Source of the DNA: Hamiltosporidium tvaerminnensis
Taxonomy: Eukaryota > Microsporidia > Dubosqiidae
Length of the DNA: 64,000 bases
Direction of reading: 5' to 3'
Assembly (NCBI GenBank): GCA_022605425.2
Contig: JAKIMF020000001.1
Coordinates: 1,118,501 to 1,182,500 of the forward strand
The notes below the pieces were generated by a model. That model did no database searches. It saw nothing but the letters and a program-made list of their open reading frames with translations, and was not told the DNA's origin. The position numbers and the translations under genes were made by a program. Positions within the stretch are counted from its first letter, which is position 1; each line of letters opens with the position of its first letter. Below are positions 11,524 to 61,221 of the stretch, one piece after another.

Positions 11524-13024
11524 TTATTTTCTATGTTTCCATCGCAAATAAAAATAAATTAATTTTTCCATAATTATTAAAAACCTGAAAAAAAATCTAA
11601 ATAAACTGCCGAAAGTATCTGAATAAGTTACAGCATGATTCAATTCATTGTTTTTAAATGCGTTTATATATATATTTTCTGTTTTGCGAGCTATTCGTTT
11701 CCAATTATAATTTTTTTTTACAAATTTGTGAAATCTTATTGGACTGCATTTTTTACAATAAATAATTTCTTTACTTTGTAAAAAATTCATTCGGACGTAA
11801 CTTTTCTAATGAACATTTATCATTTTCAAAGATTTCGTTTATATTTTTTAATTTATTGCAATTTCCACATCCAAATTCACCTTCTTCTACTTTCTTTACA
11901 GTTTTTAATATTCCTTCAACCATGTCTTCACAACTTGTCATCCGTAACTCTATCATCTCATCAGGTAATATTTCGTGTATTCCACCTACATTTGTTGAAA
12001 CTACTATAAGTCCAGAACTTACGGCTTCAATTATTGCCATACAAAATGATTCTGTTAAAGAAGTGTTTAAAAATATTTGACATCTTTGTAATACACCACT
12101 AATATTTTTATTATCTAATTCTCCAAGCATCAATACTCTATTATGTAATTTATTATCATCTATCATTTGTTCCATGTTTTCCCTTTTGTTTCCGTTACCA
12201 ACGATAACAAAATCTACATTTTTTGTCATTGAACATACCATTGGTATTATTTCGATTAATAAATCTACTCCCTTTCTATAAACTAGCCTAGAAACAACAG
12301 CAATTTTTATTCTTTTTTCAAATTCACCAAAAAAACTTTTAAAATTGTCTTCATGTTTAATAAGTTCAAATGGTTCAGCAATTTTTTTACCATTTTTATG
12401 AATAAAATTCGTTACTCCGCATTTTTGCCTTTGAATTTTATTTCGATTTTTCTTACATCTAAAATTTTTACTTTTTACACCGTTCGGAATCACGAAGATC
12501 TTATTTTCTTTTTTAATCTCAAATCTTTCAATCAGATTTTCTTTACAACAATAAGATACACATATATATGCTCCTATATTTTTTAAAATACCTTCACATA
12601 ATTTATTTACTATGATATTTTCAATGCCTCCGGTTTCGAAGATAGAATGTTCTGTAAGCACTGTTGGTATGCCCATAGTAATTGCATGCGATACTCCTTC
12701 AATAGATAAATTTGACATACTCTGGTGTCCATGTACAATTTCAATTTCATTAGAAACAAATATTTCGAAAAAATGTTTGAAATTAGAAAAAAGCGAAGGA
12801 AATGTTGTATTTTGACATACCAAAGGTAAACTAAGGTAATATACTTTTATATAATTATACTTATCGACTTTTAAATAATGTATATCTTTATAATTATCAT
12901 ATGAATGTGTTATTATTATTACTTTATGATTTCTTTTAACTAATTCTTTTGAAAGACACATTATATGAGTTTCTATACCACCTATGTTTGGAAAGAAATA
13001 ATCACAAACCATAGCTATAATCAT
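11524..13024 (-). CDS. GPI3: GPI3/PIG-A: GPI-GlcNAc transferase catalytic subunit (frameshifted)
   Basis: This is the catalytic subunit of the ER complex that moves GlcNAc from UDP-GlcNAc to phosphatidylinositol, the first step of GPI-anchor synthesis. The N-terminus has the family signature VCDYFFPNIGGIETH, followed by VIIITHSYDN, a HGHQ/TEHS region, ICVSYCCKEN and VIPNGV. The GT4 half has VVSRLVYRKGVDLL, an E-x7-E motif (TESFCMAIIE) and VVSTNVGGIHEILP. About 45 residues are inserted after PNGV. The first frame stops at 11771. The conserved C-terminal part (NYNWKRIARKTENIY, then a membrane helix ending LRWK) continues at 11524-11790 in another frame, so one extra T in a T6 run near 11785 breaks the gene. 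I choose the start at 13024, 11 codons inside the longest ORF. It lies 3 bases behind CCC and matches the family's usual N-terminus. Confidence 0.93.
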
Positions 13025-13027
13025 TAA

Positions 13028-13030
13028 GGG
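13028..13030 (-). promoter_or_regulatory. CCC start-proximal signal of GPI3
   Basis: CCC lies three bases upstream of the ATG at 13024 (CCCTTAATG on the minus strand). It supports that start over the upstream ATG at 13057, which has no such signal directly in front of it. Confidence 0.55.
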
Positions 13031-13059
13031 TAAACAGGGTTTATTGATAAATAACATTA

Positions 13060-14630
13060 AACTGTGTTATTGATATTATTTTCTTTAAAAGTATAATTTT
13101 TAAGAAACCATCTCCTAAGTAATATGTTATAGTTTTAACAATTTTTTATAATATTTCTTTTAGCGTTATTTTGATTGTTCTAAAGAGTTTTCCAATTTTT
13201 TTTGTTTAAAATTACCTTTTTTTGACTTAGAATGATTCTTAAATATTTATTTATTATAAACCACAGAATCAACTAAAATTAATTAAAAATAAGTTTTTTT
13301 TCAAATTAAAAAGATTGCTTTGAAAGGCAATGAATCATCCTATGATTTTATTTATGTATGATATTATCCACTAATTTGTATTTTAAATTAGCAAAAATAT
13401 ATTTAAAACTGCAAGTTTATATTTAATGGGTTTATGATATTAATTATTATTCGAGATTTTTGGTTTATGGCTGTTCGAAATCTGTACATGTATTTCCTAT
13501 CAAAATATAAAAGTCGTAATTTGTTTCAATGATGAAATAATGTATTTAGTTAGATATAGTGTTAAATTAATTTTTTTTCTTTAGTTATCTTATATATTTT
13601 GTGCCATAGTCAACTTAACTATTTACACCTTAATTTTTTAACAGATCTTCGTTCGCAATTATATCATTCAAAATAAAGATTTTGATATTTTCCTATTATG
13701 GATTTAAAAAATTCTTAATTATTGCACGCTTCTTTAAAAAAAGGTTCATGCTGCAGCAGATCGGCCACTTGTTTGACGTACCATGACAACTGTCTACTAC
13801 GTTTAAAGGAATTTTTCTTTGATTCATAATCTTTTTTAAACCAAATTAATGGTTTTAACCGATTTTAAGTAATACAACCAAACCTAAGGTTCTTTTAATA
13901 CTTATAAAGAGCTTTTTCAGTTACATTTTTTTGTGATTTAGTAGGACAACGATCTTAGGTTATCCTATAAAATGATATTCTCTAACAAAACCTATAAATA
14001 AGGCTTATTCCTTTGTTATAGCCTATATTATTCGATTTTTCGTTAATAAAATTGGAAGCAAATATTGTGAACATATTATAGCCTCAATAAATGTAAAATT
14101 TAATAATTTAAAACGCAAAATATATTTATCTAGCTTATTTTACAAATTTCGAGCTAAAATTTATCCGGTTATACTTCAATTCCGAATACTAAGTTCTAAA
14201 GATTACTATTCTCAATTTTTTTATCGAGACTTGAACTTAAATAAATTTAGAGAAGTATATTTAAAATAAAATCTTAACTATGGCGTTGGGTGTAATCATG
14301 CTCATTTAATTTTTACAAATAATTGTCAAATTTTCTATCAAGGTTATAAAGTTTTACAATACTGATATATACATTCTCCCACCTATAATATAATTTTTCT
14401 TAAATGTAACAGAAAAAACATTGGCATCTAGCTTGATGTCTTCTTTCTGTAACCATTTCGAAGGAAAATAATATTTACTACTCATTGTAAATAGCATTAC
14501 ATGACCTTGAATTCGACTTTTTGTTTTATATTTTGTTGTTTAATTTGCATATTAAATTAATTTTTAGGATTTTATTCTGTTTTTTTTATAAGTTATAGTA
14601 TATTTGTGACTTCATTTAAAAATCCAAGTT
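13060..14630. other. AT-rich intergenic stretch, no gene seen
   Basis: No ORF of note and no recognised motif. A short less AT-rich patch at about 13745-13800 is unexplained. Confidence 0.5.
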
Positions 14631-14639
14631 GTGAATATT

Positions 14640-15850
14640 ACCTTTCTAATTTCTAAGCCCTTCGATTGTTTTGTAAATATTTCAGTTATTTCTTTCTAAT
14701 TGTCCAAAATTTTTAAAACATATGGTCTATTCATAATTAGCTGGAGGATTCCCCGTCTAAGTTTAACCGAAGGTTGATACAGAGTCATTTTAACCGATCT
14801 GGAGTATATCTTATGTGTCATTTGTACCGAATTTTGCAAAATGGATAAATCAGCAGATTTAAGTCGAACTAATCTATGTTTAACTGATAAACGAATTTGC
14901 GGTATCAATCGCTGCTAATGTTTTTTTATACACCATTTAATGCGAAAAAATCTTTTTACTCTAATAGGATTCCTCTTGTACTCTTGGACGGATTTTTCTT
15001 TTACGTTTAAGCATTAATTCCTATTAGTTTAATTTTTTATACTCAACTAAGTTTTCTAAAAGAGTAGCCGTTGGTGACAGAGTCCTATCATTTATAACTA
15101 GGCTATTATCCATAAAATACCTTCGCCTCATCTTTCCTAAATCTAAATAATTTTCTCCACATATAAACAATTAGGCTCTCAATCAAAACAAATATTATTT
15201 GAGACTAAAAATTCTACTCTTATACATAGTAATCTATTTTCTTTTAATTAAGTTTACAGATCAATTACAACAAATGTAAAAAATACATGCACAACAAATT
15301 TCCTCTTTGCAGAAGACCTTTTCGATCTTTTTGTTTGTGGTTTTGGGGGGACATATTGAACTATGAAATTTCTATCTTGTTTTTTTGAAAAACTAAAATT
15401 TTGGATAAATTCTATAAGCTTGGTTTTTATATATATTTAATTAAATAGTCTAATCTTTCGAAAAAACTTTTTTTTCATATTACATGTAACCATGAAATAA
15501 AATCCCCACTGTAAATAGAAATAACTAATAAAAAAATCTTTTATTTCTTAAACGTCTCTTACTGTCTGACTAACTTCTGCTAATTTCACTGGCTGTTTTT
15601 AATAAGAGCTAACAAATTTTGTAAGTAGTTTCTGAAAACTTGTAAATATTCAGAGCCAATAATTTTTAAATGCCAGGACTTCTACCTAATGCGTCTTATT
15701 CAAACAGATAACTTAGATTGCTATATAACCATTCAGCACATGGCGTTTATTAAAAAAAGCTTTGCAATATCATAACTATACAACAGAAAGTTGTATGTTT
15801 CCTAAAAAAACCATAAATACTAGCAATTCTGGATTCATTCAATTCTTAAA
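14640..15850 (-). mobile_element. Retrotransposon copy G: highly decayed internal fragment
   Basis: The open stretch 14696-14908 aligns with the zinc-proximal region of the best copy: RLKSADLS against RLEPADFS, and VKLRRGI against TELGRGL. Upstream DNA at about 15055-15110 matches the segment around 18810-18860 (a TCTAGAAGAGTAGC-like word), and about 15300-15330 and 15800-15830 match 19090 and 19625. Order and strand agree with a single minus-strand copy in which ends and frame are lost. It is the most diverged copy I could still place. Confidence 0.65.
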
Positions 15851-15995
15851 TCAATCATATATATATAACCTTATCTAATAAAGAAAAAACTGTCTAATAA
15901 TTATCAATCACAAAGGTATTAGATGCACATTATATAGTGCTGCGTCTTATTTTCGCTTATGAATGTAGACAAAAATTTAAATTTTTTTCTGAATT

Positions 15996-16219
15996 ACCTT
16001 ATTTAATTATTCTCTTCCTCTTTTACCTCTCAGTGTCGAGGATAAACAAATCAATGAATTTCATTTTTTCTTTTAATCAGTTATAACTCGGGATTATAGG
16101 GAATTTGGCCTATAGATCCGGTGATGTTTATGTCAACACCGTGGCAGCAATGATGTTAATACGAATTAACACAGTTATTGCCAATTAGATAGTTTTTGAT
16201 TGGATTACCCCCTCCATCT
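15996..16219 (-). repeat. Short repeat S, copy 3
   Basis: Read on the minus strand it starts GATGGAGGGGGTAATCCAAT, contains GGATCTATAGGCCAAATTCC and CGAGTTATAACTGATTAAAA, and ends in GTTTATCCTCGACACTGAGA with GTAAAAGAGGAAGAG and an AT tail. It is similar along its whole length to the copy at 9.4 kb. No coding capacity. Confidence 0.75.
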
Positions 16220-16224
16220 ATTCT

Positions 16225-17185
16225 GATTTACCCAATCATAAATATAAAAAAAATTTTCATAATAGACTCCACCTCGAAATAACTCAAATTTATTACTCTC
16301 ATTTTAAAATTTCTCGCTATTTTCATAGGTCGTAAGTTTCACACCATAAAACTTTCAAGACATTTTTTTCTTGACGCGAGTTTCAAAAATATTATATTTA
16401 CAGCTCAAATTTAAATTAAATTCTCTTATGGTTTTTTACTAAAGCTATAAACAATTGTAAATTTCACATGTCTACATACTTTGTTAGGGGGTCTTTAGAA
16501 GGTATATATATGGATATTGTTTTTATGTTCCTTTCCAAGCTGATATAGGCTTCTTATTGTGTTCGTCATGCATATCTGCGAAGCTTGTCTAATACGTTTC
16601 TCTTTCAAAAATCAATCAAAAGACATGTGAATTTACATAATCATTCTATTATGTTTATAGGCTCGAGTATTTTGCAAACAATTTTACTTAGGGGTCTCAG
16701 TTCGAACTCCTACCTTGGCGATTGCTTTGATTTTAAGACTTCTAACATGTGTTAACATAAATGATAAATTCATCAAAGATCATGAATCGATAGTAAAAAT
16801 GAAGAAAACCATCTTTTTGTTTTATTCTTGTCATTTTCTGTTCAATCTGTACTATGTTTTTTCAATACTTTGTAAAAATTTAATACAATTTTAAATTTTT
16901 GTACCTTGGAATTCCTGACTGAGTTTTGTATGTGTGCCCTAAAACCTTATTTACTGCTAAATGTATACATTTTTCCTTTCTTGCTCTACAAATTCTTTAT
17001 AATTTTGTATGAATTTTAGAAATATAAGTTTATTTTCATCTGTAATGTGTCCAATCAAATATTTTTTTGGGATATTTGCTAGTTAAATTGAAGCTCATTT
17101 CTAATAGAAATAAAATAGTACTAGCGAATATGAAAATAAAAATATGAATACACATTTGGTTAACAATATATCCAATTCGCCTTTT
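16225..17185. other. Intergenic stretch between repeat S and retrotransposon B
   Basis: AT-rich with no ORF. A TTCGAAC word at about 16701 looks at first like a tRNA T-loop, but no stem pairs around it. Nothing else is recognised. Confidence 0.5.
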
Positions 17186-17257
17186 CTTCTGATCTATGTC
17201 ACATTACTTTAAATAATTTTATATATAAAATTCTGGGTTAAAATATTTTTACCATTT

Positions 17258-17881
17258 TTATATGTCTTCTTCTACCTCTTTAACCACTTTTGTCTCTTCT
17301 TCCAAATCCGACTCTTTATTTATGTTATTGGTCGGTTCCTCTAAAGTGGTTCCTCCTTGTATAAAGGGTGCTTTGTTTTTTGGTTTAAAATTTTTTGCAC
17401 CATCTTCCTCTCTCTTCTCTTCTTTTAAAGAGGGTATTGGTTCCTCGTGATTCTCTGCTCTCATAATAAAACCCATTGACGCTCTCTTCCAGCTCTCTTC
17501 GGCATTTAGTCTTGACTCAAGTCCTCTTCGTCGATCAAAGGAAATTGTTTCGACTGTTTTCTTAAGTACTATAGACTGAATGTATGCCTCTACATTCATG
17601 GGTATTTCTAGTCTTTTAAGATGAGATTTATGGTATTTTGTCACAATACCGTCCCAGGTCATCACATAAGGGATTATCTCAACACTACACTTATAAATAA
17701 GGCCCAACTCATTGGCTAGCAGGTCATACTTCCTAAGTTTTTCAGTTTCAACTATTTGAAGTGAATCTTGGGAAGTGATTCCTACTTCAATGAGTGTTAT
17801 CTTATTCTTCTTCTTATCTAAAATAAATATGTCCGGTCTGTTATTCCGAATTTTAACATCAGTTTTTATTCTGGTGTCCAC
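17258..17881 (-). pseudogene. Restriction-enzyme-like endonuclease domain of copy B
   Basis: The 207-codon open stretch starts inside the domain. RPDIFIL (residues 15-21), LIEVGI (30-35) and the K..KYDLLA word (48-55) fit the PD-(D/E)xK nuclease pattern of R2-type non-LTR elements, which nick the target site and prime reverse transcription. The C-terminal third is acidic and low in complexity (about residues 140-207), ending in EVEEDI before the 3' UTR. The key acidic and lysine residues are still present here, unlike in the RT of the same copy. Confidence 0.85.
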
Positions 17882-18017
17882 TCTTATCTCTGCATACTCA
17901 TTATCAAGAATTTCTTTAACTGAGTGACTCCTAATTCGTTTTTAGGACTTAAACTTATATCTATTTAAGAGAAGTAAGTGTAGGCATCTAACCACTTCAT
18001 TATGCCGTCTGGTGTAG

Positions 18018-18668
18018 TCATGGCCCAGCCATTTTACATCGAGCTGCTAGATGATCTACAGTCTTACCAGACTTCCCGCAGTGTTGACACACACCATCTG
18101 CTCCCCAGAATACATTTCTATCCTGAATATAGAAGAACACAGCTTCATTGCGTGGCCTAATATTCCCTCTCTTTAGCCATCTTGAAGAGTCACTAACACT
18201 CACAAGCTCATTTTTCCTTGCGTTATATAACTTTGAAGTAAGTTTTCGTTTTTCTATTTCGTTATATAGTTTTGCAAGTTGAGCTTCTTCTAAACTTTTC
18301 TTAGTGACTTCTTCTACCCACCTGTACTTTACTTTTAAGAAGCCTTTTATTAGTGCAAGATGGGTTTTATTATTATTCTCCACCTTGAGGATTGCTGCTC
18401 GTCTAGTTGATATTTCTTTACTTTTTTCCAGACAATCCAAGAGTTGCAGAAGCATATGTTCGCTTCGCAACTCAGCACTATGTAGGCCTCTTCCAAGTTC
18501 TGTTCTAGGAAGATACAAACGCTCTTTACATCCTGGGCGGAGATGTATTTTATTCTTCACCAACACCGCACGCACTGCATCATCTAACTTAGAGAAGTCA
18601 GCCGGTTCAAGTCGAAGTACTCCTATGGATAGTTGATTAACGATATCGCATGTTGATTGATTGCACAA
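18018..18668 (-). pseudogene. RT thumb and CCHC zinc-motif region of copy B
   Basis: The 216-codon open stretch carries a basic helical region (thumb side of the RT) and ends in CQHCGKSGKTVDHLAARC, a C-x2-C-x8-H-x4-C motif. In R2-type elements such a motif sits between RT and endonuclease and helps bind nucleic acid. The stretch runs into a stop just after the zinc motif, and the endonuclease reads on in another frame 140 bases downstream. Confidence 0.8.
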
Positions 18669-18784
18669 AATATTTTTTTTTGCATTTAATCTAGTGTGAC
18701 AAAGTCCTTCAACTCTTGATATAAGTTTACTCTGTACTTCTTCAAATGAGCTACGTGTTGGAATTCCTCTGCTATCTTCTATTA

Positions 18785-19063
18785 TTATAAATATTTGTAA
18801 ACACTAACACCTTCTAGAAGAGTAGCAGTATCTTCACAACACGTATCATTTGTGGCTGACTTCTCTTTGTTAATCTCTAGGCCAATCACATCTAAAAATT
18901 CCTTTACCTCGCCTGTCATAGCACTCAATGTTGAGCTGTCTTTTGCAAGGAGCTTTGGATCATCAATAAACAAGAGATGATTAGTAGAATGGGATTCTGC
19001 ATCTGTTTGTACTGTCACTTTCGTGTATTTTTCAGTAAGCTTTCGGCTTAATGGTCTATACAC
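18785..19063 (-). pseudogene. RT palm fragment of copy B with FIDD motif
   Basis: The sequence HLLFIDDPKLLAKD (residues 29-42) is the RT motif C (usually Y/F-x-DD), with both aspartates kept. It is followed by GLEINKEKSATN, the usual motif D context. The fragment is separated from the upstream RT part by a frameshift and about 100 bases of decayed sequence. Confidence 0.85.
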
Positions 19064-19167
19064 AACACGAACAACAATGTTGATAAACTATCTCCTTGCA
19101 GAATTACTCTCTCAATCTTCTTGCTCATGACTTTTTCAGGCCCTAGTGATATATCAATTTTCCATTT

Positions 19168-19569
19168 TCATATAATTACCTTGATAAATCTCACGATCAA
19201 ATCAGGTAAATGAAGGTTTTCAATGCATTGAGTTAAATAAGCATGGTCTATTGAATCATAATCTTTTTTAACAGCAATCCATGTTGCCTTAAGATTGTTT
19301 CCGTACTCTTTATTTAGGGCAATATTAAGTAGAACCTGCTCTTTCGCTCCCTGCACACCTCTTACCGCCCCTAATTGGTTCTCTGCAAGCAACCCTCGCC
19401 TTTCCACTTCAATTTGAACGACTTTCGTTACACACTTTGTCGTTAACTTATAGAGGTTGGACATACAAGTGATTGGCCTGTAGTCAGAGCCTCTTCGTGG
19501 AATTCCTTTCGGTATCAAATACGAAGCCCGCAGTAAAACCAATCGGCTTGAGTTGTTCCTTCTAAACAT
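19168..19569 (-). pseudogene. RT fingers/palm fragment of copy B, motif A catalytic Asp lost
   Basis: RT signatures in order: IPKGIPRRGSDYRPIT (about residues 19-34), LLAENQLGAVRGVQGAKEQ (60-78) and the motif A region ATWIAVKKDYDSIDH (95-109). In this family motif A should have an aspartate where residue 99 is alanine (codon GCT against GAT), so the polymerase site is dead here. The upstream neighbour overlaps in another frame (19515-20024). Confidence 0.88.
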
Positions 19570-20024
19570 ATAACTTCAATATCATAAATATATTTGTGAA
19601 GAGTTGTAAGTTTCTTAATGAAAAAATTGTAAATACCATCAATTCCAGCAGCTTTCCAATTAGCGAGCCAATTAATGATATTTACAAATTCATCAAGTGA
19701 AGGAAACGTGGTCGGATGATTATCTGATACAAATGGAATCAAATAATCATCATACGTGACTGTGTCATCATTTTTGTTCCACATTGTAGACCAAAAACTC
19801 ACAATTTCATCACGACTAACCACATGCTCGGATTCCACACGCTCAGATAACCCACGATAAAATCGACCTCGGAAAAGCTCAAACATACTATTCTCTTTTC
19901 GGAATTGCTTCCTACTTTCATACATCGTAATTTTTTTCTCGTAAACATTCAAAGACTCATTCTTCTTAACTAAAGCCTCAGAAAGATCAGTTACGCTGCT
20001 CAATTTTAAATTAAACTCTCGCAT
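19515..20024 (-). pseudogene. Region upstream of RT in copy B
   Basis: This 169-codon stretch holds the segment between the N-terminus and the RT. EIVSFWSTMWNK and NWLANWKAAGIDGI are typical of the region just before RT in R2-like and other non-LTR elements. The same words recur in copy D (34252-34560). It overlaps the RT fragment in a different frame through a frameshift near 19560. Confidence 0.8.
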
Positions 20025-20489
20025 GATTTTCTTAAGGCTCTTCGTTTCCGAAGTGGAGAGCTTTTCCTGCTTACGAGCCTTCTCGAGAAGATCTTTGGAA
20101 AGTACTAACTTAGAAATTTTACTTTCTATGTTTTCCTAACAAGCGGATCTAGGCATTTCTTTGCGTGTTGCCTCGTCATAGCATACCTGGGCTGCCTGGA
20201 TTATCCGTGCCACTGCCGATATCGTCATCGGCACATAAGAATCAGCTCACTTATCGATAATTCGATTAATAAGGTCCAACACTTTACTGTCAAGAAATTC
20301 ATTTGGAAGCTTTCGAGTTCGGACCACCACTTTTCCAATTTCGTTCTCCGAGATTTCTTTGATTTTACTCAAAAATTTATCTTTCAGGTTTATGTACTCT
20401 GTGGTGTCAGTCAGGGTGCATGGCTCAGTCAGACAAGTGGCGATTCTACGTCGCTTTCTATTCTCTTCTTGCCTTATTTCCCTTTCTGC

Positions 20490-20726
20490 TTAATTTTGTG
20501 CGAGTTTTTTAAACGCATCGATATCTAATGTGCAGCCAAATTTCTCATTATAGTACCTCATAGTAGCGGGCCAGCCATTTCTGGGCATTCTCTCAAACCT
20601 CTTTTGCACTGCTAGAATAGCAGATCTAGGCCATTCCTGCTCTACGATTGTGACAGAGTCAAGTATTGAGTGCAATACCATCAGTCGATTCCCTTCTAGA
20701 ATGGCCTCTGTATTGAGGTTTGTCAT
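20490..20726 (-). pseudogene. N-terminal coding fragment of retrotransposon copy B
   Basis: A 78-codon open stretch without a motif I can name. It lies about 270 bases inside the probable ORF start (ATG-ATG at 20996). A matching but broken segment exists in copy A near 3300-3490. Its higher G+C agrees with the rest of the element and contrasts with the flanking AT-rich DNA. Confidence 0.6.
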
Positions 20727-20999
20727 GCCGTTGGCTGGTCAACATGCAGTGGCATCGGTACCAGAAGACGAGAGTATGGTTTCAACCAAGCAGACTAGAC
20801 TAGTCTGGCAACTACTGCTTGGTGGTTGATGGGTGGTGTCATGGAAGGTCGGTGGAGGTGGAAGTCTCTCGGATAACATTGCTAGCATCTATATCACACA
20901 TCGAAATCTCTCCTGCACTGTTCTCTAAGTTGTTTACAGCCTTTATTTGTTCATTTTTTATTTTTCGCTGTCTACTTTTTTCCTTCTACCCATCATTAC

Positions 21000-22095
21000 T
21001 TTAAATAATTTCACTTCATTTATGCTATTGATTTTTTAAGAATTTGATGAAGATAAGAAAGAATCGTTAATCTTTTAAATGCCATTGCGGCTTCACAATG
21101 GTTTTCTTTCGGTTACCTTTCGCTTAAAATTTAAAAATGGATGATAGTGAATTATAGAACGGGATTAATAACAATACGTTTTGTCAATTTTCCCAAAAAA
21201 ACGAAAAGAGAAATATATCTCATAGAATACCCTTGAAGTAGAAAAAAGTATCAAGATATCACTAAAATATATACATATATATTGTAATGATTTTCTTAGG
21301 TAAAACATGAAATTATAGTATATTTCCAATTTACTAATTGATTTTTTAAAGTATAGTTATAGAACTCTCGTAACAAAAACATAAAATAATGAAATTTTAA
21401 GAAGTTTTTTTCATTTTTCTTGCAAATATGTGCATTATTTTAGATAAAGAAGAAAGAAACTTGGGAAATTTTGAAAAAGAGCAAAAAAAAATAAATCCCT
21501 ACTAAAAGATGCGGTAAACACAAAATAAATTTAATTAATGCCAAATAGAATTTGCATAGGTAATATTTTAAGATACTAAGAAATGTGTAATGTTTTAAAT
21601 ATTATGCAAAAATATTTAACTAAATAGTCGGTCCGTTGAATATAAATCTTAAAGCATGATTCGGAATTATTTTTAAATATATTCTCATTTTACTATAAAA
21701 ATGATTCAGGCTTTATTATAAAAGCTTTTCTTAAATTTATTGCGATTAATATTTAAAGAATAACGAAAATATTAAATTTTATTCAGTGAATAAATCTATA
21801 AATGTAATATGGTAAGATTCCTCAGCGGTGAATGAATTCTTTAGCACGGAGCTGTGTATTTCTACTTGATTAAATCAGTTAAGATTGTATTTATTTTTAA
21901 AGACAAATTATAAAGAAAAAAATGTGGTTTAAATTTATATTCAATTTATAGATATTAGTTTTCCAAATATTTCTAATTTTTTTCAAAGAAAAAAATATTA
22001 CAGAAGGAAAATTAAAAAATATTATTAAAATATATTTGATTCCATATTTAAAACATTAAGGGTCGAAAATAGGTTTGAATTATTTAATATATTTT
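21000..22095. other. AT-rich stretch between two retrotransposon copies
   Basis: No ORF, RNA gene or repeat signature is recognised. The sharp drop in G+C at about 21000 probably marks the 5' boundary of copy B. Confidence 0.55.
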
Positions 22096-22099
22096 CTTC

Positions 22100-23490: not shown

Positions 23491-23499
23491 TTTTATTAA

Positions 23500-23995: not shown

Positions 23996-23999
23996 ATTT

Positions 24000-24260: not shown

Positions 24261-24264
24261 TTGT

Positions 24265-25195: not shown

Positions 25196-25200
25196 ACAAT

Positions 25201-25203
25201 CCC
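25201..25203 (+). promoter_or_regulatory. CCC start-proximal signal of the 183-aa gene
   Basis: CCC lies three bases before the ATG at 25207 (CCCTAAATG), the same spacing and nearly the same sequence as at GPI3. Confidence 0.55.
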
Positions 25204-37772: not shown

Positions 37773-38937
37773 TCAAATTCTTATTTCATATCTGCCACTT
37801 TTAAATAGATATTTTGCCCAAATGGCAGTTTTTTCTTTTAAACCTACATCCTTGATAGTTAAACCGGTACAACTGAAAAATAAACATTCAAAATCAATTA
37901 GGATTCCTCTTAATTTTTGATTTTGAAAGGATTGGTAATTTAAAATTAATTTAGCACTTTCATTTTTTATGTTGGATCACATTCCATATGATTATAGAAT
38001 CTTTTTCGAAAAAAGTTGCTTTTCCGTTTTCGGATGAACTAGATACTGAATGTGAATTATACGGTAATAAGATTTTTATGTTGATATTATTTATTTCTTT
38101 CATTCTACAAGAAAGTAATATGTAATTTTTTTCTAGTGTTAATTGAATTGGAGGTTTGGGCGGAATCGATTTGTATCTGATTAAACATTGATCTGAGCAT
38201 TTTAATGTAATTGGAGTTTGAAATTTACTCTCTGAAAATATTTTGTTAGCATTTAGATACGTGTTTTGTTTTAAATGAACCATATTGTTAAGGATTGGGT
38301 CGAGAACCGGTTTTTTATCTTCTGAGCCATTTTTTGATTCTAAATCATTACAATTATTTCCATATTCTTTAATCTCATTTCTGAAACAATCCTCAGTAAT
38401 TCCCATTTTTTCTGAATTGGTATCAATATTGTCTTCTAAGTTAATAAACTCAAGATTCTGAGGAACACTTAAATTTAAATAAAAATAATTTTTGGTCTTT
38501 TTGCTTTTCGGTGCTGAAATTTTACCATTGAGATTATTTCTTAATATATTTCCTTTTATATCCATAATAACATTTAGTTCCTCAATTACATCCAACATAA
38601 TTTCACTTTCATTATTCGTGAACTTTTTAACCGTTTCAATTTTACGATCGATATTATTTTTAATATTTTCTAATAAATTATTTGTATTAATTTCGGATTT
38701 TAAAGTTAAAAGATCAAAAAAATGCGACTTTAAAGTTTTTGAATTTAGATTTCCAATAACACTGGCCAATGTTTCAATAAATTCATTGGCTAAATAATTT
38801 TGGATAATTGAATGGCACTTTGAAGAAATATATATTTTTATATCATCATGGTAAATTACATTGGTTGGATTCTCTATTCTACGTACGCCATATATAAGAA
38901 TATCATTTTTATCCACAATACAAATATCTTGATACAT
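37773..38937 (-). CDS. Clathrin-adaptor medium (mu) chain (frameshifted)
   Basis: Mu chains sit in AP complexes and bind cargo sorting signals at the trans-Golgi or endosome. The N-terminal ~95 residues are longin-like. LDVIEELNVIMDIKGNI (about residues 114-130) is the typical start of the C-terminal mu-homology domain. Near the end, INIKILLPYNSHS and EKDSIIIWNV correspond to the V.I.IPVP and E...I.W.I words of AP mu chains. The long frame stops at 37960, but about 62 more residues follow in another frame to 37773, with GLTIKDVGLKEKTAIWAKYL and SGRYEIRI matching the conserved mu C-terminus. One extra A in the A6 run at 37963-37968 explains the break. I cannot tell AP-1, AP-2 and AP-3 apart; delta-COP is less likely. 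No CCC precedes this start. Confidence 0.85.
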
Positions 38938-47880: not shown

Positions 47881-47889
47881 GCCAAAGTA

Positions 47890-50253: not shown

Positions 50254-50270
50254 GCGAAATAGAAATGAGA

Positions 50271-50273
50271 GGG
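50271..50273 (-). promoter_or_regulatory. CCC signal supporting the internal start of the LRR gene
   Basis: AACCCTCTCATTTC precedes the ATG at 50253 by 17 bases. The upstream ATG at 50337 has no CCC near it. Confidence 0.45.
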
Positions 50274-50339
50274 TTCTTGTTTGATGCATATTATTAATGA
50301 ATAGAACCATCAGCTCTTTAAACATTCTTGTTTTCATTT

Positions 50340-51240
50340 AGAATAACAAATGCAATAAAACTTAAGTAATTTATTAATAATAAATTATAAATTAAAAATG
50401 AACTTGAAATCAGAATAAATGTAAGTTTGATTTTGAAGAATGTATGGAATGTGTCTAGACCACGTCCCAAAGAACAAAATTATTCTAAATTATTGGTATA
50501 TGATTTAATATGTTTATATACCAAGAAGTTATTTCTTTTATTTTTTACATTTTTCTTATTTTAAACGACATATTACAAGCTATAATTCGGTTTTTGAACT
50601 AAAACAACTCTTTTGGGAAAATAATAATTTTTTAAAAATAATACATTAGGCAAATATGGAAATATAATCATCGTACCAAAACTTTATAAATGTGTATAGA
50701 CGCTTTGATATTCTAAAAAATTCAAACTTCTATTTTGTTTCTGATTCATTTAATCCAATTCTTTAAATTATGCATGTAATTCTAACTTCGTGCGAATATT
50801 CAGTTATGAATGGTTCTAAATATTTTGAATCTAATCGGTAGTATTAAATTCTTAAAAAGGAAATTTTCTTAATGAACAAAATAGAGCAATTTTTCTTTGC
50901 CGCAAAAAATACAAACAAAAAATGCCGCGTTTTGTTGCAAAGTTGCCAACAAATGTACAACCGGATTCATATCAACAGGAAAAATAGCTTCAATAATATA
51001 AGGATTTTAAATGATTAATTATAAAAAGCGTCTTAGTAAAGTAATTACATTTCGATAGAATTTAAAATTAAATTAATCATCATTTCAGAGTATTTAAGCT
51101 AAACTGTGCCCGAATGAAATTGACGAATGTTCCTAATTCTTGATTAAAATAACGAAATTTTCGTATTTGAAGATACTTGTTCTACTCTGATTATAGATAC
51201 AAATGTTTGTACTTTTATGTATCAATTGCAAAATTTGAAG
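50340..51240. other. AT-rich intergenic stretch, no gene seen
   Basis: No open frame or repeat signature is recognised. Confidence 0.5.
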
Positions 51241-51244
51241 TAAA

Positions 51245-51462
51245 AGAAGAGAAGCGCATTTAAAATATCTGCTTGATAGTAGGCACGCAGAATTGGTAAC
51301 CAAAGCATTGTTGTCATTTTAGCGTGATGTAAGTCACAATGAATCTATGGACCAGTCTACCGTAACTCCGAATTACAATAGATTTAAAGAAACAATGGAA
51401 AACTTTCATTTTTTCATCTTCGAAACCGATGGGTAAAAGAGTAATCAAATAAGTAAGTATAT
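51245..51462 (+). repeat. Short repeat S, copy 5
   Basis: The most diverged S copy. CTGCTTGATAGTAGGCACGC at the 5' side matches the CTGCTTGG.A.TGAGTGTG word. GTAACTCCGAATTACAATAG matches the middle, TTCATCTTCGAAACCGATGG plus GTAAAAGAG the 3' side, and the tail AATAAGTAAGTAT matches that of the copy at 9.4 kb. The ORF at 51314-51496 is antisense and spurious. Confidence 0.6.
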
Positions 51463-51464
51463 AA

Positions 51465-54385
51465 GCAAATTTACAACCATATTTATACTCTTGCATTTAT
51501 AAAAAATGATATAGAATTGAATTTGCAAACATAGCATACAATATTATTTTATATAATTGCAGCCTGGTCCTGTATTAAAATAATTTTGATCTTATTTATA
51601 GACTTTCGAAGCAAAATTAAAAAATCAACAAAGCGATAACAATATTATTGTTTACTATATAATTTAAATTTACAGTAACAAAAACTATTCTGAATATTAA
51701 TATTCATTAAATATATCCAAAACAGAAGATGTGATTATATGAAAAACAAGTCGGACATTAGTTTGAATCAAACACAAAAATTAAATTTTAGATTCACAAT
51801 AAGTCTTATATAATTATCTCTCAAGTTGAAATGATTTGCAAATATTTGAGCTTTGAATAAATTAATTTAACAAATATATTTTTGTAAGCAAAAAAGTTAT
51901 TAAACATGAACATATACACGCCTTTGAAAGTTTTCAATTTAAGTAAAAATAATCATTTTGATTTTATAAACAGAAATTTAATATGATTTTCTTAAATATT
52001 TAAAAACCTTTGTGCAAACAAAAAATACAGGAAGTAAACCAATTTTTTTATTAAAATAATTAGAGTAATATATCTATATATTGATTGTGAATAAGATTTA
52101 TGAATTCAACTATTTATTTATATTTTCTTTATTTACTTTTTATGAAATAACATTTGACCTGTCTTTCATTTAAGATATGTTAATCAAGAATAAGTTATTT
52201 TATTGAATACTATGAAGTACATTTAAGTTTAAAATAAATATTTTTTTTCAAAAAATTTATCTATTTGTTTTAAAGAATTTAATTTTAAAAGTACAAATAT
52301 AATAGGTATATTTTTTACTTTTGACAGTAATTTCGACTAGATTTTTAGTTTTTATCTAAAAACATATTCTATTCTTATGATTACTAACAGGCCCACATAA
52401 CTTATGGTTTACATTTGAATATGCAATTTGTTTAAAAATTAAAATAAGTAAAAGATTCTAAGTAACCAACAAATTTCTTGAGTAAAAAGTTGGTTGGTTT
52501 TTTAAGATTTAAATTTTTGTATTTGAAATTTTATAACGCACAAAATCCTTCAATAAGTAACCCATCTTTTAGTTGTAAACGTTCCATGAAACCTATTCAT
52601 TATATAATATGTTTTCAAATGCAAAAAATGTAAATTTTATACAATTCATATAAATAATTTTGTCATAAAAAAATATACTATGCCTGATCATTAGTTTGAT
52701 ATGGTATAGTTTATACGATTAAAATATAAGCTAACAATGCTTTAGGATGTTTCACACCTTCTTTCCTATCCACATGCCGCATTCAAATTTATTTTTAAGT
52801 ATAATATCTCAGCCTTTTGATTTTAATCAATTGAAGAAAAAATAATGTATCTCATATTTCTAGGTTTATTATATTTTTTTAGTTCTGAAAGGCTTTTAAA
52901 AGGGAATTTAGATTATTGGATAAAGTTATTCTATGTCAAACAACACTCTACAAAAATTTCCAGCAATTTTTTATATGAATATTCACTTTAATTCTTGCAT
53001 GGTATCAAACCAAAATAAACAAAAAACATTTTATTATATTATTGATAAGCCTATTTATATGTTTGGATAGCTCGGTTTCTGTTTTCTCAAAAGTTCTATG
53101 AGATTCAGGTGAGTTTAGCTTAAAGATAACACAAAAGCCCTTTTACTGTGTGCACTTGGATAATATTCGTTTATCCGCAACCCCATTTACATTTCTATTG
53201 TAGAGAGATACATTTCGAAGGCAGAAATCGAAATTTTTAGCAATCCTATATTGGCTATTATCTGTATTATATTGTGAAAATCCAGATAAAAAATCTTTGA
53301 TAAGGAAACTTTAATTCGTTGCTATCAGGTAATAATTTAACGTGAATATGGTGAATTTGAAAGATCTGCGATGAAAAACACATCAATTTATAATAGATCT
53401 GAGGTGATAGATTCAAAAGTCAAGGTAATATGATTGTCTACTTTATTTTTCACAAGTAAACTTGATATATAATATAGCACATGATTTTATATATCAAACG
53501 TGACTATTTCTGAAATTACTTATCGATAATAAAAAATATTAGCAGTATAACTGTATATCCAATGCTTGTGAATTACAATATCACATAAGAATAACTAATT
53601 CTTTTCTGATTTTATGCATCTAGCACCGTAATCGAAATATTTCGGTATATTTGTAACTCTTAAAATAATTTAATTACAGATTGGATGTATTAGGATATAT
53701 TTTGCTTTGCATTTTCGAGTTAAATTTTACATATTTCGTAAATCAAAACCAATATATTTGTTTACTTTTATACCCTGTAATATAAATGTGTGTATTACTT
53801 TATAATTTTATTATATTTGGTTTTTTTACAGAAACGAATTTTTAAAATATAAGCACCATATAGATTATTGTTTTAGGTATATTTTGTATCTAAATGACTG
53901 TATTTCTACTAAAAAGTTTAAAATATACTGGTAATAATTTAGATACCGATTTTTCTTTTGCAAATTATATATCGCTAATAATTTTAAATTAAAACCTTTA
54001 TTTAGCATGCTCTAGTATAATTTCTCTTGAATATGAACTAATAAATTCTTATAAAATAGATTTTCTTAAAGTATTTTTAAATATAGAAAATCTCAAGAAC
54101 ATTTTTTTACTTGAAATTTAAAAAAAATGTCGAGATCTTTGATACGTAACCATAACCTAGAATAAAATCATAGAGAAACTGATGAATATCAGAATAGATT
54201 GGGTATAATTCTGTTAGGATATACCGGAAGGGCTATTTAAGTTGACAAATTAGGGCTTTAGGATGGAAAAAACGATCAAATATCCCACAGAGAACACCAA
54301 AATATTAAAATAATATTTATCATTATATTACCAGCAAAATATGAAGAAAAAAGGCTTACTTGATACGATTAGAAAAACATTTAAC
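51465..54385. other. Long AT-rich stretch, no gene seen
   Basis: Nearly 3 kb without an open frame, RNA gene or recognised repeat. Confidence 0.55.
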
Positions 54386-54387
54386 AT

Positions 54388-54960
54388 AACTATTACCCCC
54401 TCGCAGAGCCATGGATCTTAAGTGCTCCGGTATCTTTAGCAATATTTCTCCATTTTTCCAAATTTGTCTCTAAATTCTTTCTAATGAGTTTAGTTTTCAT
54501 AGATCATTTGTCACTTCATCTGGCCATCTTCCATTTTTTTACCTGATTCTTAATTTAATTTTAAGTGTATTTTTCGCAAATTCTACTAACAGCTCTTTCT
54601 GCTAATTTTAATTTTGCGTTTCAGCCGTATCCAAGTATTCTTTGTTATATCACAGTCACCAAATCAATTTCTTTTTAAGGGTATATATCTTATTTCGTGA
54701 AATGCACAACCTCTTATTTTCTAAATATTGATTCATATATCTTTGAATATCTAATACTCGCAATATATCGAACGTCCTTGGTTTTTTAATCTTCTCCGGT
54801 TTTTAAGGTGCATGTACTCTGATAGGTCCCATAAAGTCTCATATATTTGTATTTACTTGTTCATGTCATCATAGTTGAGTTCAATAAGAGATTCAAGGTA
54901 AAATCGTTTTATTACCGGCATCTAAACATTCTTAGATCTGCAAAAAAATTCTTGATTCAT
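54388..54960 (-). mobile_element. Tail remnant of a second LINE type, copy 2
   Basis: Read on the minus strand, WPDEVTNDL and, after a frameshift, LEKWRNIAKDTGALKIHGSARG are followed by a stop near 54391. W.DE/D....W..IA.D near a stop is typical of the extreme C-terminus of many LINE polyproteins. The last ~150 bases are colinear with 24040-24215. Upstream to about 54960 the sequence has similar composition but no readable frame. Confidence 0.45.
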
Positions 54961-54969
54961 ATTTTAAGA

Positions 54970-56200
54970 GGTTTCCAGCGAGAACACCAATTTCTTAGCT
55001 GTAGATGATTAAATATAAAACATTTCAGCGTGGTTATGATAAGGAGAAATTATGTTATATTCGGTTGAAATTTCAATTGATTTCAATCCAGACATTTCTG
55101 ATTTCGCTGATAATATTTCTAAGAATGATAGTATCGATATTCTGTTTGCTTTCCTATGATAAAAAGGTCATATATATGCTATTTAAAGTGTTATTGCCTT
55201 AAATTTTACCAAATGTGTTTGTGGAAGTATAAAAACTAGTGAAAATCCAAAACAAATCTAATTTAATAAAGAATAGAAGTACAAACCAAGATTTAAGAAA
55301 TAATAGAGCAACCTATCTAGTATAATATTTTTTTATCAAAAGACACCTTTTAAAATATTATACCTTATTTAAAGCGATTTAATCATATATAATTTTATAA
55401 AGTGTTTATTATAGAAATATAAAAAATTCTGCTAAATGAGAATTTTTTATTTTATGTGTTCTTATTTTTGTCTCATATTTTGGCCCTGATTAGTCTATAT
55501 TGTAAAACATATTAAATTCATATACTTTTTTTTTTACAATTATTTACATTATTCTAAAATTTTAAAAAAAATATTTTCATGTTGAATGTGTTAATTGTTA
55601 TTTTTTCAAGGGCTTAATAAATTTAATCAATTGACCATTTTTTTTCATTTCCATTGTCTATATCGTTTTCATTTATTTTCTTTTATGGAATTTCGTACGT
55701 AAAAAATATTTTTGGATATTTTTAGAAGAAATCATCGTTATTTAATTTATTATGAATGTTTCAAGATTAAATTCATAGCTAAAAATAAAGATCTTACATA
55801 AAAATTTTGCTGTATTTTTTGATTTCACACACTAGAAGCAACCTATGCAAAGTGTTTATGATTCATCATTAAAAACTCAATATTTTACAATCTTCAAATA
55901 TGAATATATTCCTCCGACCTTTATGTTCTTGTTTTTTATGTGTAATTATAAAAATAAAACGATTTTGGATATATAGCGGCAATTCAAGTTTTATAATGTT
56001 TTAAATCTCCTAATAATTTGAGTATTACATGAAAATCTGATATTTAAATTCAAATCTATGAAGATTAGGATGAAATATCTTTAAAATCGTTTTTAACTGA
56101 TAATTTATTCTAATATAAAATATCTATAAAATATATTTTCAACTTTCTTTAAAAAATATTTCTAATTTAAATTATAAAAATTCGAATTTAAATGAAGAAT
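54970..56200. other. AT-rich intergenic stretch, no supported gene
   Basis: A 65-codon ORF at 55005-55202 has no CCC and no motif, so I do not call it. Confidence 0.5.
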
Positions 56201-56204
56201 CTAT

Positions 56205-56233
56205 ATTAATTAATTAATTAATAATTAATTAAA
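56205..56233. repeat. TTAA-rich palindromic tandem repeat
   Basis: Repeated TTAATTAA units form a perfect or near-perfect self-complementary tract about 40 bases before the start of the 172-aa gene. It could be simple AT slippage or part of the promoter's melting region. Confidence 0.5.
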
Positions 56234-56264
56234 CAAATATTTTATATATAATTTAAAAAGGGAT

Positions 56265-56267
56265 CCC
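56265..56267 (+). promoter_or_regulatory. CCC start-proximal signal of the 172-aa gene
   Basis: GGGATCCCATATG: CCC lies two bases before the ATG and forms a GGGATCCC palindrome with the preceding GGG. Confidence 0.55.
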
Positions 56268-56269
56268 AT

Positions 56270-56788
56270 ATGCCCAGCAGCAGTAATAATTCAGATAATA
56301 TGCCAGAAGAAATGAATGTTGAAAATATATATGATCATCAAGTTGAAATGGAATTGAAATACCTCCTACATACCGTATTTGAAACATATTTCATATATAG
56401 CCAGGCCATTGTTCAAATCCGGAATAAACGAATTGAAGGACTATCCGAAGATCAATCTAGTGATATTGTGTCATTTCTTATGGAAATCTCTGAAGCTAGG
56501 TTGATGACATTTCATAAAATATTAGGTTTTGGACTTACCAACATACATAATTTTGAATTCAATATAAATTTAAAGACCGAAAACCTATTCCTTGATTTGA
56601 AAGATGTTCCTTTTGTTTTTACAAAAAGGGAAACATTTTATAATGAATTATTGTTTAGTATGAATAAAAAAGCTGCGGAAATGGATATATGTGAACTGGT
56701 TGAATTTTTGAATTCTTTGATCCCTCAAAGTGTAATATCCTTGCAAGATGATTATAAAAGAATCATGAAATTGTGTCATTATGATTAA
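56270..56788 (+). CDS. Unrecognised 172-aa helical protein
   Basis: I do not recognise this protein. The composition is balanced, the frame is open from an ATG two bases behind CCC, and the DNA is less AT-rich than its surroundings, so I take it as a real gene. The first ~20 residues are Ser/Asn-rich and disordered. Residues 25-95 look alpha-helical (ELKYLLHTVFETYFIYSQAIVQIRNKRIEG, DIVSFLMEISEARLMTFHKIL), and residues 120-172 again helical and acidic. There is no signal peptide or membrane segment. The nearest neighbours are kilobases away, so context gives no hint. Confidence 0.75.
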   Translation: MPSSSNNSDNMPEEMNVENIYDHQVEMELKYLLHTVFETYFIYSQAIVQIRNKRIEGLSEDQSSDIVSFLMEISEARLMTFHKILGFGLTNIHNFEFNINLKTENLFLDLKDVPFVFTKRETFYNELLFSMNKKAAEMDICELVEFLNSLIPQSVISLQDDYKRIMKLCHYD

Positions 56789-56794
56789 TTTTAT

Positions 56795-59700
56795 AATTAA
56801 AAGTTGTTGTTGAATTGTTAAACCCGTGAATTACCGGAATTTTTTTTAGTTTAAAGTTTTACCGTACAATACTCATTAAAGGTATATTTTGGTTATAATA
56901 GAGTTTGTAAAACAAGTCGCATTAGTTATTTTACTAAACCAAAATACGATGCATCAAGTAATTATATACGTAGTTCCTTCAAATCCAGGAAATAGTCTCT
57001 TTATCGATTATTTAAGCGCCGATTCATCTTAAATTAATATATGTAGAGAATTATAAAGAAATCAATGAGACGTAAATGGGGAAATAAAAATATAGATTCG
57101 AACAAAACTGATTTACCTTTAGCTTTTAAGCTCCGTTAAATTTGTTTCTAAATTGAATCAAACACAAATAAACTTTGCAAAAAAAATTCTATCAGAGATT
57201 CGGTTGAATTGACTCAAAGTAAAGATATAGACAGCACACTTATTGGCTAATTCATTGATTTTAATTCTAAATTTTGTTGTGAATATTTCTCATGCAATAA
57301 GACGAATGTATTGTGCAAAAGAACCCTAAAAAGTACCTTAAAGATGTAAATTTATGATCGAGATTGATACTTACGCGATAACTTATAAATTCGTCAAACA
57401 TATTTTTTAGGTTTAACAAAGACAATTTTTCCTGATAACTGATTATTTGAGCTATAAAATGCTGTATATAATGAAACGAAAGAATTAAAGTAGAAAAGCC
57501 TACACAAAGATTATATATACACACTGATTTGAAAAATGTGTAAGAAAGAAAATATTCAATGGTAACCTAAAAGTCCGTTAAAAAAAGTTAAAACATAATT
57601 ATTCAAATAAAGTTCGAAGAATAGCCGTAATATAGGACAGAAGAGAAATATGAATAAATTAAAAAAAATATTTAACGATTTACGCAGGCCAATGAATTGC
57701 TTTTATTTCTGAAAAAAATAATGAAAATATATGTAAAATTTAGTCAATACAAATTATAGAGTTTATATGAAAAAAATATGTAAAATATTTTATAAAGGAT
57801 TATATAAAAAACTCCAATGAAGTACCATATGATAAAGTTATAATATATTCTATGTCTGTTTTGTTGCTCTTTCTGATCTAAGCAAGTATGAAAAGTTAAG
57901 GATTTGATCTAATTAACAAATAATAAGAACATTTATAAATTATATTTCGTAAACTTAAAATATTTTGAGTCGCCTGTAGTTTTACACTGTACTATTAGGT
58001 GAAAAATACAATATTTTTAGGTAAACAAACATTTTTAGTAGTCTTAAACCATTTCGTTACTAAATAAATTATTTGAAAAATAATTTTTAAATTAAAAATA
58101 TCTTTGAAATAATTCTTGAAAAGAAATTAAGTATAATTCCTATTTTTAAAAAACAAGTTTCTTAATTTGTAAATATGTTTTTATTTTTTTCATCTATTGT
58201 TAAATATTGTAAGGCTTACATTGGTAGATGTAAGTAATCATATTGGAAACATTTATTTACTAAAAGAATGTAAAATCGATACATCTGTTCGATTTCATCT
58301 ATGCATAAAAGACATAATTTGAAAATATGATAACCTAATTTTTGAAAGATAAATCTCTGACTAAATCTAAGAATGAAATAAATGAAAAAAAGAGAAAATA
58401 AATGAAATAAAAACGGCAGAATAAAATGCTGATAATTTTTTAATCGTGGAATGTGAAGATATATAATTCTACATCCATATTCTTAATTAAAGTATTCTAT
58501 GTTTTTTATACTTTTTATATGTTTCTAATGTGATGATTCTTAGTTCTAGTATTGTTTTCTGTGATATATTGATTTATATTTATTGTAGTGAGATATGTTT
58601 ATATGGTATTGAAAACAAGAAAAGTTTTCAAAATTACGAGTTCGTTCTTTTCTATCAAACAAAGCACATATAATCGAGATAAGCTACAATGTGGCCTGAT
58701 AGCATTTAAAAATTTATATCAAATATTATATATAAGTACTTCAATTGGGCCTAAATTGCATCTCTAGGCTAAATTATGTGCTGCTTGTAATGTCGGGGTA
58801 GTTAAGTTGGCTTAACTATTATATTCCTCTGTCTTTTTGCCCTAAACGGAATTTCGAGACAATTTGGATAGGTTTATGCCACAAATAAAATAATTTAACA
58901 GAAGCTCATAAGTTTTCTGAAAAAAACCTTAGAAATTTATCCGAAGGTGTAAAAATCATAAAAGTCTGAAAACTTAATAAACATCATTTTGCAATATTCA
59001 GTGGCTTTCCTATGAATAGAAAAAGATAAATGACATATACCTGACATAAATTAGAAGACATCCGACTAGAAAATTTTATAACGAAAAAAAAACTAGAAAT
59101 TTGAATGGATCATTATATACGCAGGAAATAATTAGATATTTTATATCGTGGATTATTCAAAAATCTTTAGGAAAATAAAACCAGACTGGCTTACATTACT
59201 GTGTTCTGATATATCGGATATGAAAACGTTTTGAAAGATATGATAAAGTACAGACAATCTGTCTCATTCGCCAAAACTTCATTGTTAATCAGCAATATGA
59301 TTTAGAAAAACCAAAGACGAACATTCGCTTGAAATGTATTGAGTGTTCAGGTCTCTATATTTACTCTATCTGAATTGATATAAATTTAAGTTTTGAAAAA
59401 ATTGTATTAGATTCACTCTGTTTTGGAAATGCTCGAAGATGAATATGCGCAAATTGTAGTTAATACCAGAATAAAAAGCAATGTGATAGTGAAAATTAAT
59501 GAAAAGATATTTTATTATAGACTTGAGCAAAATCAATATAATATTTATATAAGCAGGAACATTCAACAATATTCTTTCCAAATATTTAAAAAAAATTACT
59601 TGAGAAATATGGCTTCACGATGAAACGGGTCTAGCCTTTCTTTCTAATGTCGAGACAACCTCTTATGCTTAATATAAAACGGGTTTTAGGGTTTCCGATA

Positions 59701-60255
59701 TTAAATTTTTAAAAACAACAACTACCATCGAATATAGAGACCTTCATCAATTGCGGGAAATAAACTTACAATTATTTTCTTTCATTACCAAAAGGTATAT
59801 CAGCCTTAAGACTATCTGCATATGAGAACATATGAAAGATATTACTGGGTATCATAGCAAGAGTTATGAGATAATGCAGCCTAGAAACAAATCAAATCAA
59901 CCATAAACGAATAATAATGTGTAAATTAAATAAATAGCAAAACATTTAAAGGGACTTACGAAGATAAATTAATGACTAGAACCCAAAAAAAATACAAATA
60001 TTTGAGCTAAATGTAAGATGAAAATATCAACCAAGAGTAGACTATATTTAACTTTTAAAAACAGCAGACAAATAAAATTTAATCCTTTTTCACTTAAATT
60101 TAACTTGCCAAAAATTATTATAGATTATTTAGAAATATATTCCAATAATGAAGTGTTTTATATAAAAATTGTGAATTTTTTACAAACCAAATCACATATT
60201 ATAACTTATTAACATAAAAATACTCTACCATTCTTTAGTATCTAATAAGTACAAA
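56795..60255. other. Long AT-rich stretch, no supported gene
   Basis: Three short ORFs (57267-57524 minus, 59423-59623 plus, 60018-60212 plus) lack a close CCC signal and recognisable motifs. Some patches with more G+C (about 58730-58870 and 59600-59700) may be old mobile DNA. Confidence 0.45.
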
Positions 60256-60262
60256 CATATAT

Positions 60263-61221
60263 TTATACATCTCTATACGCCAATCTTTTCATATCTATGT
60301 ACTTATCTATCTCATAATAATACATTTCAGTATCGGTAAATATATATAGAACATTACGACTTCTACAATACTCAATACCTTTTATACTTTTAATATCTTT
60401 AAATTTTATTTCTAATTCCGATGTATAACTATAAAGCTTAAGTAAGGAATTACAATACATCGCTATTATGAACTGAATATCTTGTATTTTATACATTTTA
60501 TTTGAAATACATTCTTTAATAATTGAAGTATTGAGCAGTTTTATATAATTTTTGTTATTTATTTTTAGTGTACAGAAGTCATATGAAGATGAAGGATAAA
60601 ATAGTCTGTAACTTTCATGTCTGTATTAATATTAGATGATATATTACTATTTTTAATTTTAATGTTACTTATATCAAATTCTCTAATATTATTCTCGTTT
60701 AAATCTATCTTTTCTATAGCTTGTTGGTTACGTACATCATACTTATAAATACCACTGTCTGTACCTACATAAAGATAAAGACCTTTCCATTCAATACAAG
60801 TAACTTCCTTAATAGGTATAAACATATTAGAATATCGATATTTCAAATCATAAAATTTTATACCTGATGGCGTGATTGCAGCTAGTGTATTGTTTATAGA
60901 GTAACAATGTGTAAACAAAGTATCTTTTTTATAATTAAATATATTTTTAGATGTAGAAATATCGTATAAACGTAGACCGTTATGTGTGTCTGTTGTTGAA
61001 CAGAGCGTATTACCCGATGGGTAGTACTTTACATATGTATTACTGTATGATGTAATTGTTGGTGTATCCGTTACAATTTTATGATATTGTAGTGTTTGTG
61101 TGTTAAGAATTGAAATATTCTGATAAGAATCTGTAAAAACAACAAATTTGTCGTTTTTAGAAATGTCAGAAGAAAAATAAGTTGTTTCTAATATTTTAAT
61201 AGTTGGTTGTAGTTTATTCAT
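60263..61221 (-). CDS. WD40-like beta-propeller protein (frameshifted)
   Basis: The first 207 or so residues show WD40-style blades: FVVFTDSYQNISILNTQT, STTDTHNGLRLYDIST, LAAITPSGIKFYDLKY and LYVGTDSGIYKYDVRN, each a strand set ending in a .L.D/N word. WD40 proteins act as scaffolds in many complexes, and I cannot tell which one this is. The frame stops at 60565, but the next frame continues without a stop from about 60598 to 60263, with more blade-like strands (CNSLLKLYSY, RNVLYIFTDTEMYYYEID). One missing T in a T4 run at 60598-60601 explains the break; joined, the product would be near 318 residues. CCC lies 16 bases before the start. Confidence 0.78.

Follow-up and report, generated by a model that had tools for sequence, protein, structure and literature searches.

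Single-base frame breaks in three genes of Hamiltosporidium tvaerminnensis are probably residual consensus errors of its assembly

Within a stretch of 64,000 nucleotides from the microsporidian Hamiltosporidium tvaerminnensis (hereafter the window; C12:1118501-1182500 in a 17-contig assembly totalling 21,638,905 bases), the genes for GPI3, an adaptor complex mu chain and a WD40-like protein are each broken by a change of reading frame. Judging from the comparison with related proteins, we consider it likely that these breaks stem from consensus errors left behind in the long-read assembly of a heterozygous diploid and are not features of the organism itself: single surplus bases in the assembly, near but mostly not in homopolymers, would push ordinary housekeeping genes out of frame, and reads of the same isolate would be expected to lack them. 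The so-called host genes of the window are genes of H. tvaerminnensis, a parasite of water fleas, and the closest matches of the window genes in protein searches came from Hamiltosporidium.

The first-pass annotation of this DNA had described three genes that end early, with the C-terminal part open in another frame, and this description is borne out by the in-frame ORFs, all on the minus strand, at 11771-13057 (GPI3), 37960-38937 (mu chain) and 60565-61221 (WD40-like), each of which runs to an early stop. For all three genes, an uninterrupted Hamiltosporidium protein was found that is 98-99% identical and runs on into exactly the displaced C-terminal part, namely P0001 for GPI3 (499 amino acids, H. 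tvaerminnensis), P0121 for the mu chain (387 amino acids, labelled H. magnivora) and P0122 for the WD40-like protein (318 amino acids, labelled H. magnivora). These are representatives of clusters of 6-7 sequences each, and the comparison was made to the representatives. With 13.4 kb as the longest of the contigs listed for it, P0001 comes from an assembly other than the one in 17 contigs; it differs from the window GPI3 at four residues. Given the H. magnivora labels of P0121 and P0122, the comparison is a same-species one for GPI3 alone, not for the mu chain or the WD40-like gene. Frame-aware alignment of the window DNA to the three proteins, on which all residue counts are based, matched 494 of 499 (P0001), 378 of 387 (P0121) and 309 of 318 (P0122) residues across both frames, with one four-base step in GPI3, one in the mu chain gene and two in the WD40-like gene. 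As judged from these alignments, the match of both frames to the relatives is far beyond chance.

The main frame of the first gene encodes GPI3/PIG-A, the GlcNAc transferase of GPI anchor synthesis, with the Pfam domains PIGA and Glycos_transf_1, and P0001 starts at window position 13024. The frame step, together with the C-terminal part read in the next frame, spans 11527-11782 (minus strand); after the step, 84 of 84 residues are those of P0001, and a stop follows. An earlier reading had located one T too many in the T6 run near 11785. The net gain of a base stands, but the best positions for the step fall between 11776 and 11782, on the 3' edge of that run and immediately beyond it, and moving the step into the run adds one residue mismatch; on the alignment, a slip in the T6 run plus a substitution may still account for the break. 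The GPI3 DNA matches the assembly once, at the window itself.

The main frame of the mu chain gene belongs to the Pfam family Adap_comp_sub, and the frame step with the C-terminal part that follows in the next frame (37776-37980, minus strand) supplies positions 202-259 of the 259 of this family; all 66 residues after the step are those of P0121. The alignment places the step within 37974-37980, upstream of the A6 run at 37963-37968, and thereby contradicts the proposal that the break is an extra A in this run. One further mu-family locus, on C14, is without a stop inside its match among the matches listed.

The WD40-like protein has a weak COPA/B propeller match, under the curated cut-off, and matches ERCC-8 chains at an E of 0.006; its relative is named DUF2415 in one source. 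The C-terminal part lies in another frame at 60266-60606 (minus strand) and is joined to the main frame by two steps, according to the two-step fit to P0122. Two one-base gains within the 20 nucleotides 60587-60606 leave 1 mismatch in 26 residues, whereas a single missing base leaves 4 mismatches and an unmatched codon. A T too few in the T4 run at 60598-60601, as suggested before, is thus the poorer fit.

As the first-pass annotation had it, the genes are otherwise undecayed. Differences from the relatives number 4 of 414 residues before the step and 0 of 84 after it in GPI3, 7 of 320 and 0 of 66 in the mu chain, and 4 of 205 before the first step and 3 of 111 after it in the WD40-like gene. 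Decay of the downstream part, as expected of a pseudogene, was therefore not seen in any of the three genes relative to these proteins; a very recent null allele would pass likewise.

The same annotation offered uncorrected homopolymer indels in the assembly as one of two explanations of the breaks, and of this account the assembly indels remain the best reading while the homopolymer slips do not. A slip would put each step inside the run named for it, with the sign named for it; this fails for the mu chain and the WD40-like gene, whose steps lie outside the runs named, and holds for GPI3 only with the additional mismatch. In the in-frame sequence of the ten genes of the window, a run of at least four bases turns up about once in 28 nucleotides, and 91% of 62-nucleotide stretches contain one. 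With runs so frequent, a run near a break is expected and is weak evidence.

An ab initio frame model (order-4, 3-periodic) served only to find longer breaks, and 54 genes from the window and from the stretches described below were scored with it. At its strict setting none of the three window genes was detected; laxer settings detected the WD40-like gene, along with many rows in repeats. By the model alone the continuations of GPI3 and the mu chain are unsupported (log-odds of -8.0 and -1.9), so that the proof of continuation comes from the relatives. Nine model rows exceeded 15, among which two pairs represent one gene each and two rows were discarded as copies of a repeat family. Strong model signals marked three more candidates on C12 (C12_300k 11359-14002, C12_300k 66-772 and C12_600k 5138-7791); among the 11 genes scored on stretches of five further contigs, none gave such a signal.

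Errors of long-read assembly should also strike unrelated conserved genes, and the same kind of break was indeed found in NSF, GCN5 and a Cdc48-type AAA gene. Besides the window, 28 stretches of 10 kb were taken, 23 of them on C12. The Sec18/NSF gene is split near C12:1030303, the GCN5 gene is split near C12:1079580 with its acetyltransferase and bromodomain in different frames, and the Cdc48-type AAA gene, on C3, is split twice. Family searches were also run over the whole genome; loci were counted from rows, the counts are lower bounds, and breaks outside the matched domain are invisible. Among the matches listed and over the matched domain, no break was seen at 9 CCT and 14 proteasome loci; likewise among the matches listed, none was seen at 11 SNF2, 6 kinesin and 17 GTP_EFTU loci. 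In the AAA family, with 20 of 44 candidates scored, 2 of 19 loci are broken, those of NSF and the C3 gene, and the 16 ABC_tran loci include one with internal stops (19 of 29 candidates scored). The matches listed for the remaining families include one broken locus of three for tRNA-synt_1, beside tandem repeats; one of 28 in different frames for DEAD, in tandem repeats, plus a fragment of 63 amino acids with a stop; and, for Pkinase, 72 matches of which five have internal stops, at four loci, one of these being intron-like. In view of these family counts, the earlier statement that three of ten genes are broken holds for the window and is not the rate of the genome. Among the other seven genes of the window, family matches run end to end for the flippase and the mevalonate kinase only (2/7).

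The tally of steps given below excludes the breaks in the C6 tRNA synthetase and the C4 DEAD-box gene, which fall within or next to in-gene tandem repeats. Although unrelated, these two conserved genes, the C6 tRNA synthetase, of the valyl kind by eye (L030 1515-1998), and the C4 DEAD-box helicase (L032 554-929), carry similar 30-bp tandem repeats in their coding regions, which are open in several frames. A different repeat, with copies that are 75-95% identical, occupies 17258-20126 of the window and recurs at C12:1199836-1202715 (L013/L014) and in L003, L009 and L027. The repeat lies in several frames and has a weak reverse-transcriptase match (RVT_1, under the curated cut-off), and several of the region's apparent frame breaks are due to its copies. 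ABC transporter domains at C12:831555-831989 and C12:1224537-1224971 lie in frames of 258 and 284 amino acids, compared with about 570-690 at most loci, and these two short frames may be further breaks. Near-equal scores were obtained at pairs of loci 24-51 kb apart (C14:1279162-1280712 and C14:1303049-1304599; C5:900536 and C5:929434; C4:581579 and C4:632681), which suggests segmental duplications or haplotype copies retained in the assembly. We also note a two-ORF candidate at L005 and a kinase on C1 with a stop (L034).

All eight homology-supported steps read as net gains of one base, without a shared signal. For the four steps in the window this comes from alignment, and for the four in NSF, GCN5 and the C3 gene from frame arithmetic, to which a gain of one looks the same as a loss of two. 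When the candidates from the frame model are added and repeats dropped, three more gains and one opposite step bring the tally to 11 gains of 12; by frame arithmetic alone the WD40-like gene, too, would count as a loss, so that the single exception may also be two gains. We noticed post hoc, in what is a small sample, that 6 of the 8 steps can be parsed as one codon in which two synonymous choices for the third base stand next to each other. The two WD40-like steps do so by script, at one of six equally good placements, and those of NSF, GCN5 and the C3 gene (both steps) by eye. The mu chain step parses in this way only with one more mismatch, and that of GPI3 not at all. Random insertions allow the parse in 28-34% of cases, making six of eight, on this post hoc reckoning, an event of about 1-2%.

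How surplus bases might have entered the consensus is a matter of speculation. For some steps, both bases of a heterozygous site in a diploid, asexual lineage could have been written into the consensus. H. tvaerminnensis is regarded as diploid (PMC10845963), and fixed heterozygosity with allele frequencies around 50%, attributed to asexual reproduction, is described for samples from the same archipelago (PMC12376958). Alternatively, and as speculatively, parts of the PacBio CLR assembly could have been merged in after the polishing of the Nanopore assembly. According to its description, the published H. tvaerminnensis assembly, FI-OER-3-3, was built from PacBio CLR reads with Canu and from Nanopore R9.4.1 reads with NextDenovo; the Nanopore version was polished, and quickmerge was then used to merge it with the CLR version (PMC10542269). 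Two points in that description speak against an error: 66 Gb of Illumina data went into polishing the assembly, 'in a subsequent step', and fragmented BUSCOs amount to 1.8%, compared with 3.8% in the older draft (PMC10542269). Among the titles and abstract openings listed, none concerned frameshifts in this assembly, and the words 'frameshift' and 'indel' are absent from the main text of PMC10542269.

Akin to the breaks described here, the errors reported for long-read assemblies (in the Kastor paper and in Watson and Warr 2019 as cited there) are single-base indels that split otherwise intact genes and come to light when intact relatives are compared. The reported errors are largely tied to homopolymers and are deletions above all, whereas the supported steps here are gains and lie mostly outside long runs; the Kastor paper also mentions insertions tied to no particular homopolymer. 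In raw CLR data, deletions outnumber insertions in the table of one paper (PMC5964698), and so the bias towards gains is no clean signature of a platform and was not used to name one.

The main rival to consensus error, which we think improbable while granting it a real chance, is that the steps are real null alleles, heterozygous or fixed, in an asexual diploid lineage, with the assembly showing the broken allele; either of the two could surface in a collapsed diploid assembly. Such alleles would be favoured by fixed heterozygosity and inefficient selection, both reported for H. tvaerminnensis (PMC12376958). If recent or masked they need no decay, and the comparison with H. magnivora is compatible with recent mutation. 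Mutation should yield deletions as well, yet all eight supported steps are gains; two gains within 20 nucleotides of the WD40-like gene, and two in one AAA gene, in a reading otherwise unbroken, are hard to obtain in this way. Moreover, genes that are essential in other fungi are affected, NSF being one.

Neither frameshifting nor slippage in the cell is likely. The first-pass annotation had left room for slippage tolerated during transcription or translation, an idea against which stand the absence of a common slip site or stop context, the intact relatives and the many unbroken conserved genes. One form of such tolerance is known from Euplotes, in which one-base gains upstream of early stops are described as rescued by frameshifting at the stops, AAA predominating before the stop (PMC10235951). 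By analogy, the one-base gains of H. tvaerminnensis would be real, and the ribosome would skip a base at the early stop so that the frame is restored after a short altered stretch. That all eight steps are gains of one base, the kind such a system tolerates, fits this explanation, which we nevertheless regard as very unlikely: in contrast to what is described for Euplotes (PMC10235951), the codons before seven early stops are AAG, AAA, CAC, AAC, CCC, CTG and AAA, with AAA in two of seven and no common slippery codon, and the genes of the relatives are uninterrupted. A tolerant organism should also accumulate shifts widely, and the CCT (9/9) and proteasome (14/14) loci are unbroken over the matches listed. 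We attach the same very low probability to the wider proposition that a microsporidian tolerates real one-base gains in essential genes and has the frame restored by its ribosomes or its transcription machinery, a share of the genes needing such correction for their expression. Were the shifts nonetheless real and tolerated, a microsporidian would stand next to Euplotes among organisms with a code that is not strictly triplet.

Transcriptional slippage at A or T runs, restoring the frame in a share of the mRNAs, is more doubtful still. Slippage at poly(A) is known in AT-rich endosymbionts, and the likeness extends to an AT-rich genome, an intracellular organism and runs near the breaks. Two of the three window genes do have a run of six in their stop-bounded interval, and in GPI3 a run slip with one substitution is possible. 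The explanation fails because most steps lie outside runs: the mu chain step precedes its run on the upstream side and those of the WD40-like gene lie about a run of four, which sets both genes apart from the endosymbiont cases, and no run exceeds three bases in the stop-bounded interval of GCN5 or of one AAA step.

Short spliceosomal introns (mean 28 bp in H. tvaerminnensis, for which PMC10542269 confirms 17) that mimic frameshifts are the least probable reading; as the cause in the three window genes they are ruled out by the residue-by-residue match to the relatives, which keep every residue across the steps while the surplus is only one or two bases. The one case that favours introns is a broken-looking CDK-like kinase on C14 (L033 370-540), whose pieces are separated by two very short intron-like stretches, each with GTAAGT at its start and CTAATTAG at its end. 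The break in this kinase is likely due to introns, and its intron-like stretches help to separate introns from frame breaks in the H. tvaerminnensis genome.

If the breaks are assembly errors, as we think likely, housekeeping genes can appear truncated in the H. tvaerminnensis reference to which later studies map (PMC12376958), and caution would be warranted in that counts of gene losses or pseudogenes derived from this reference need to be checked against reads.
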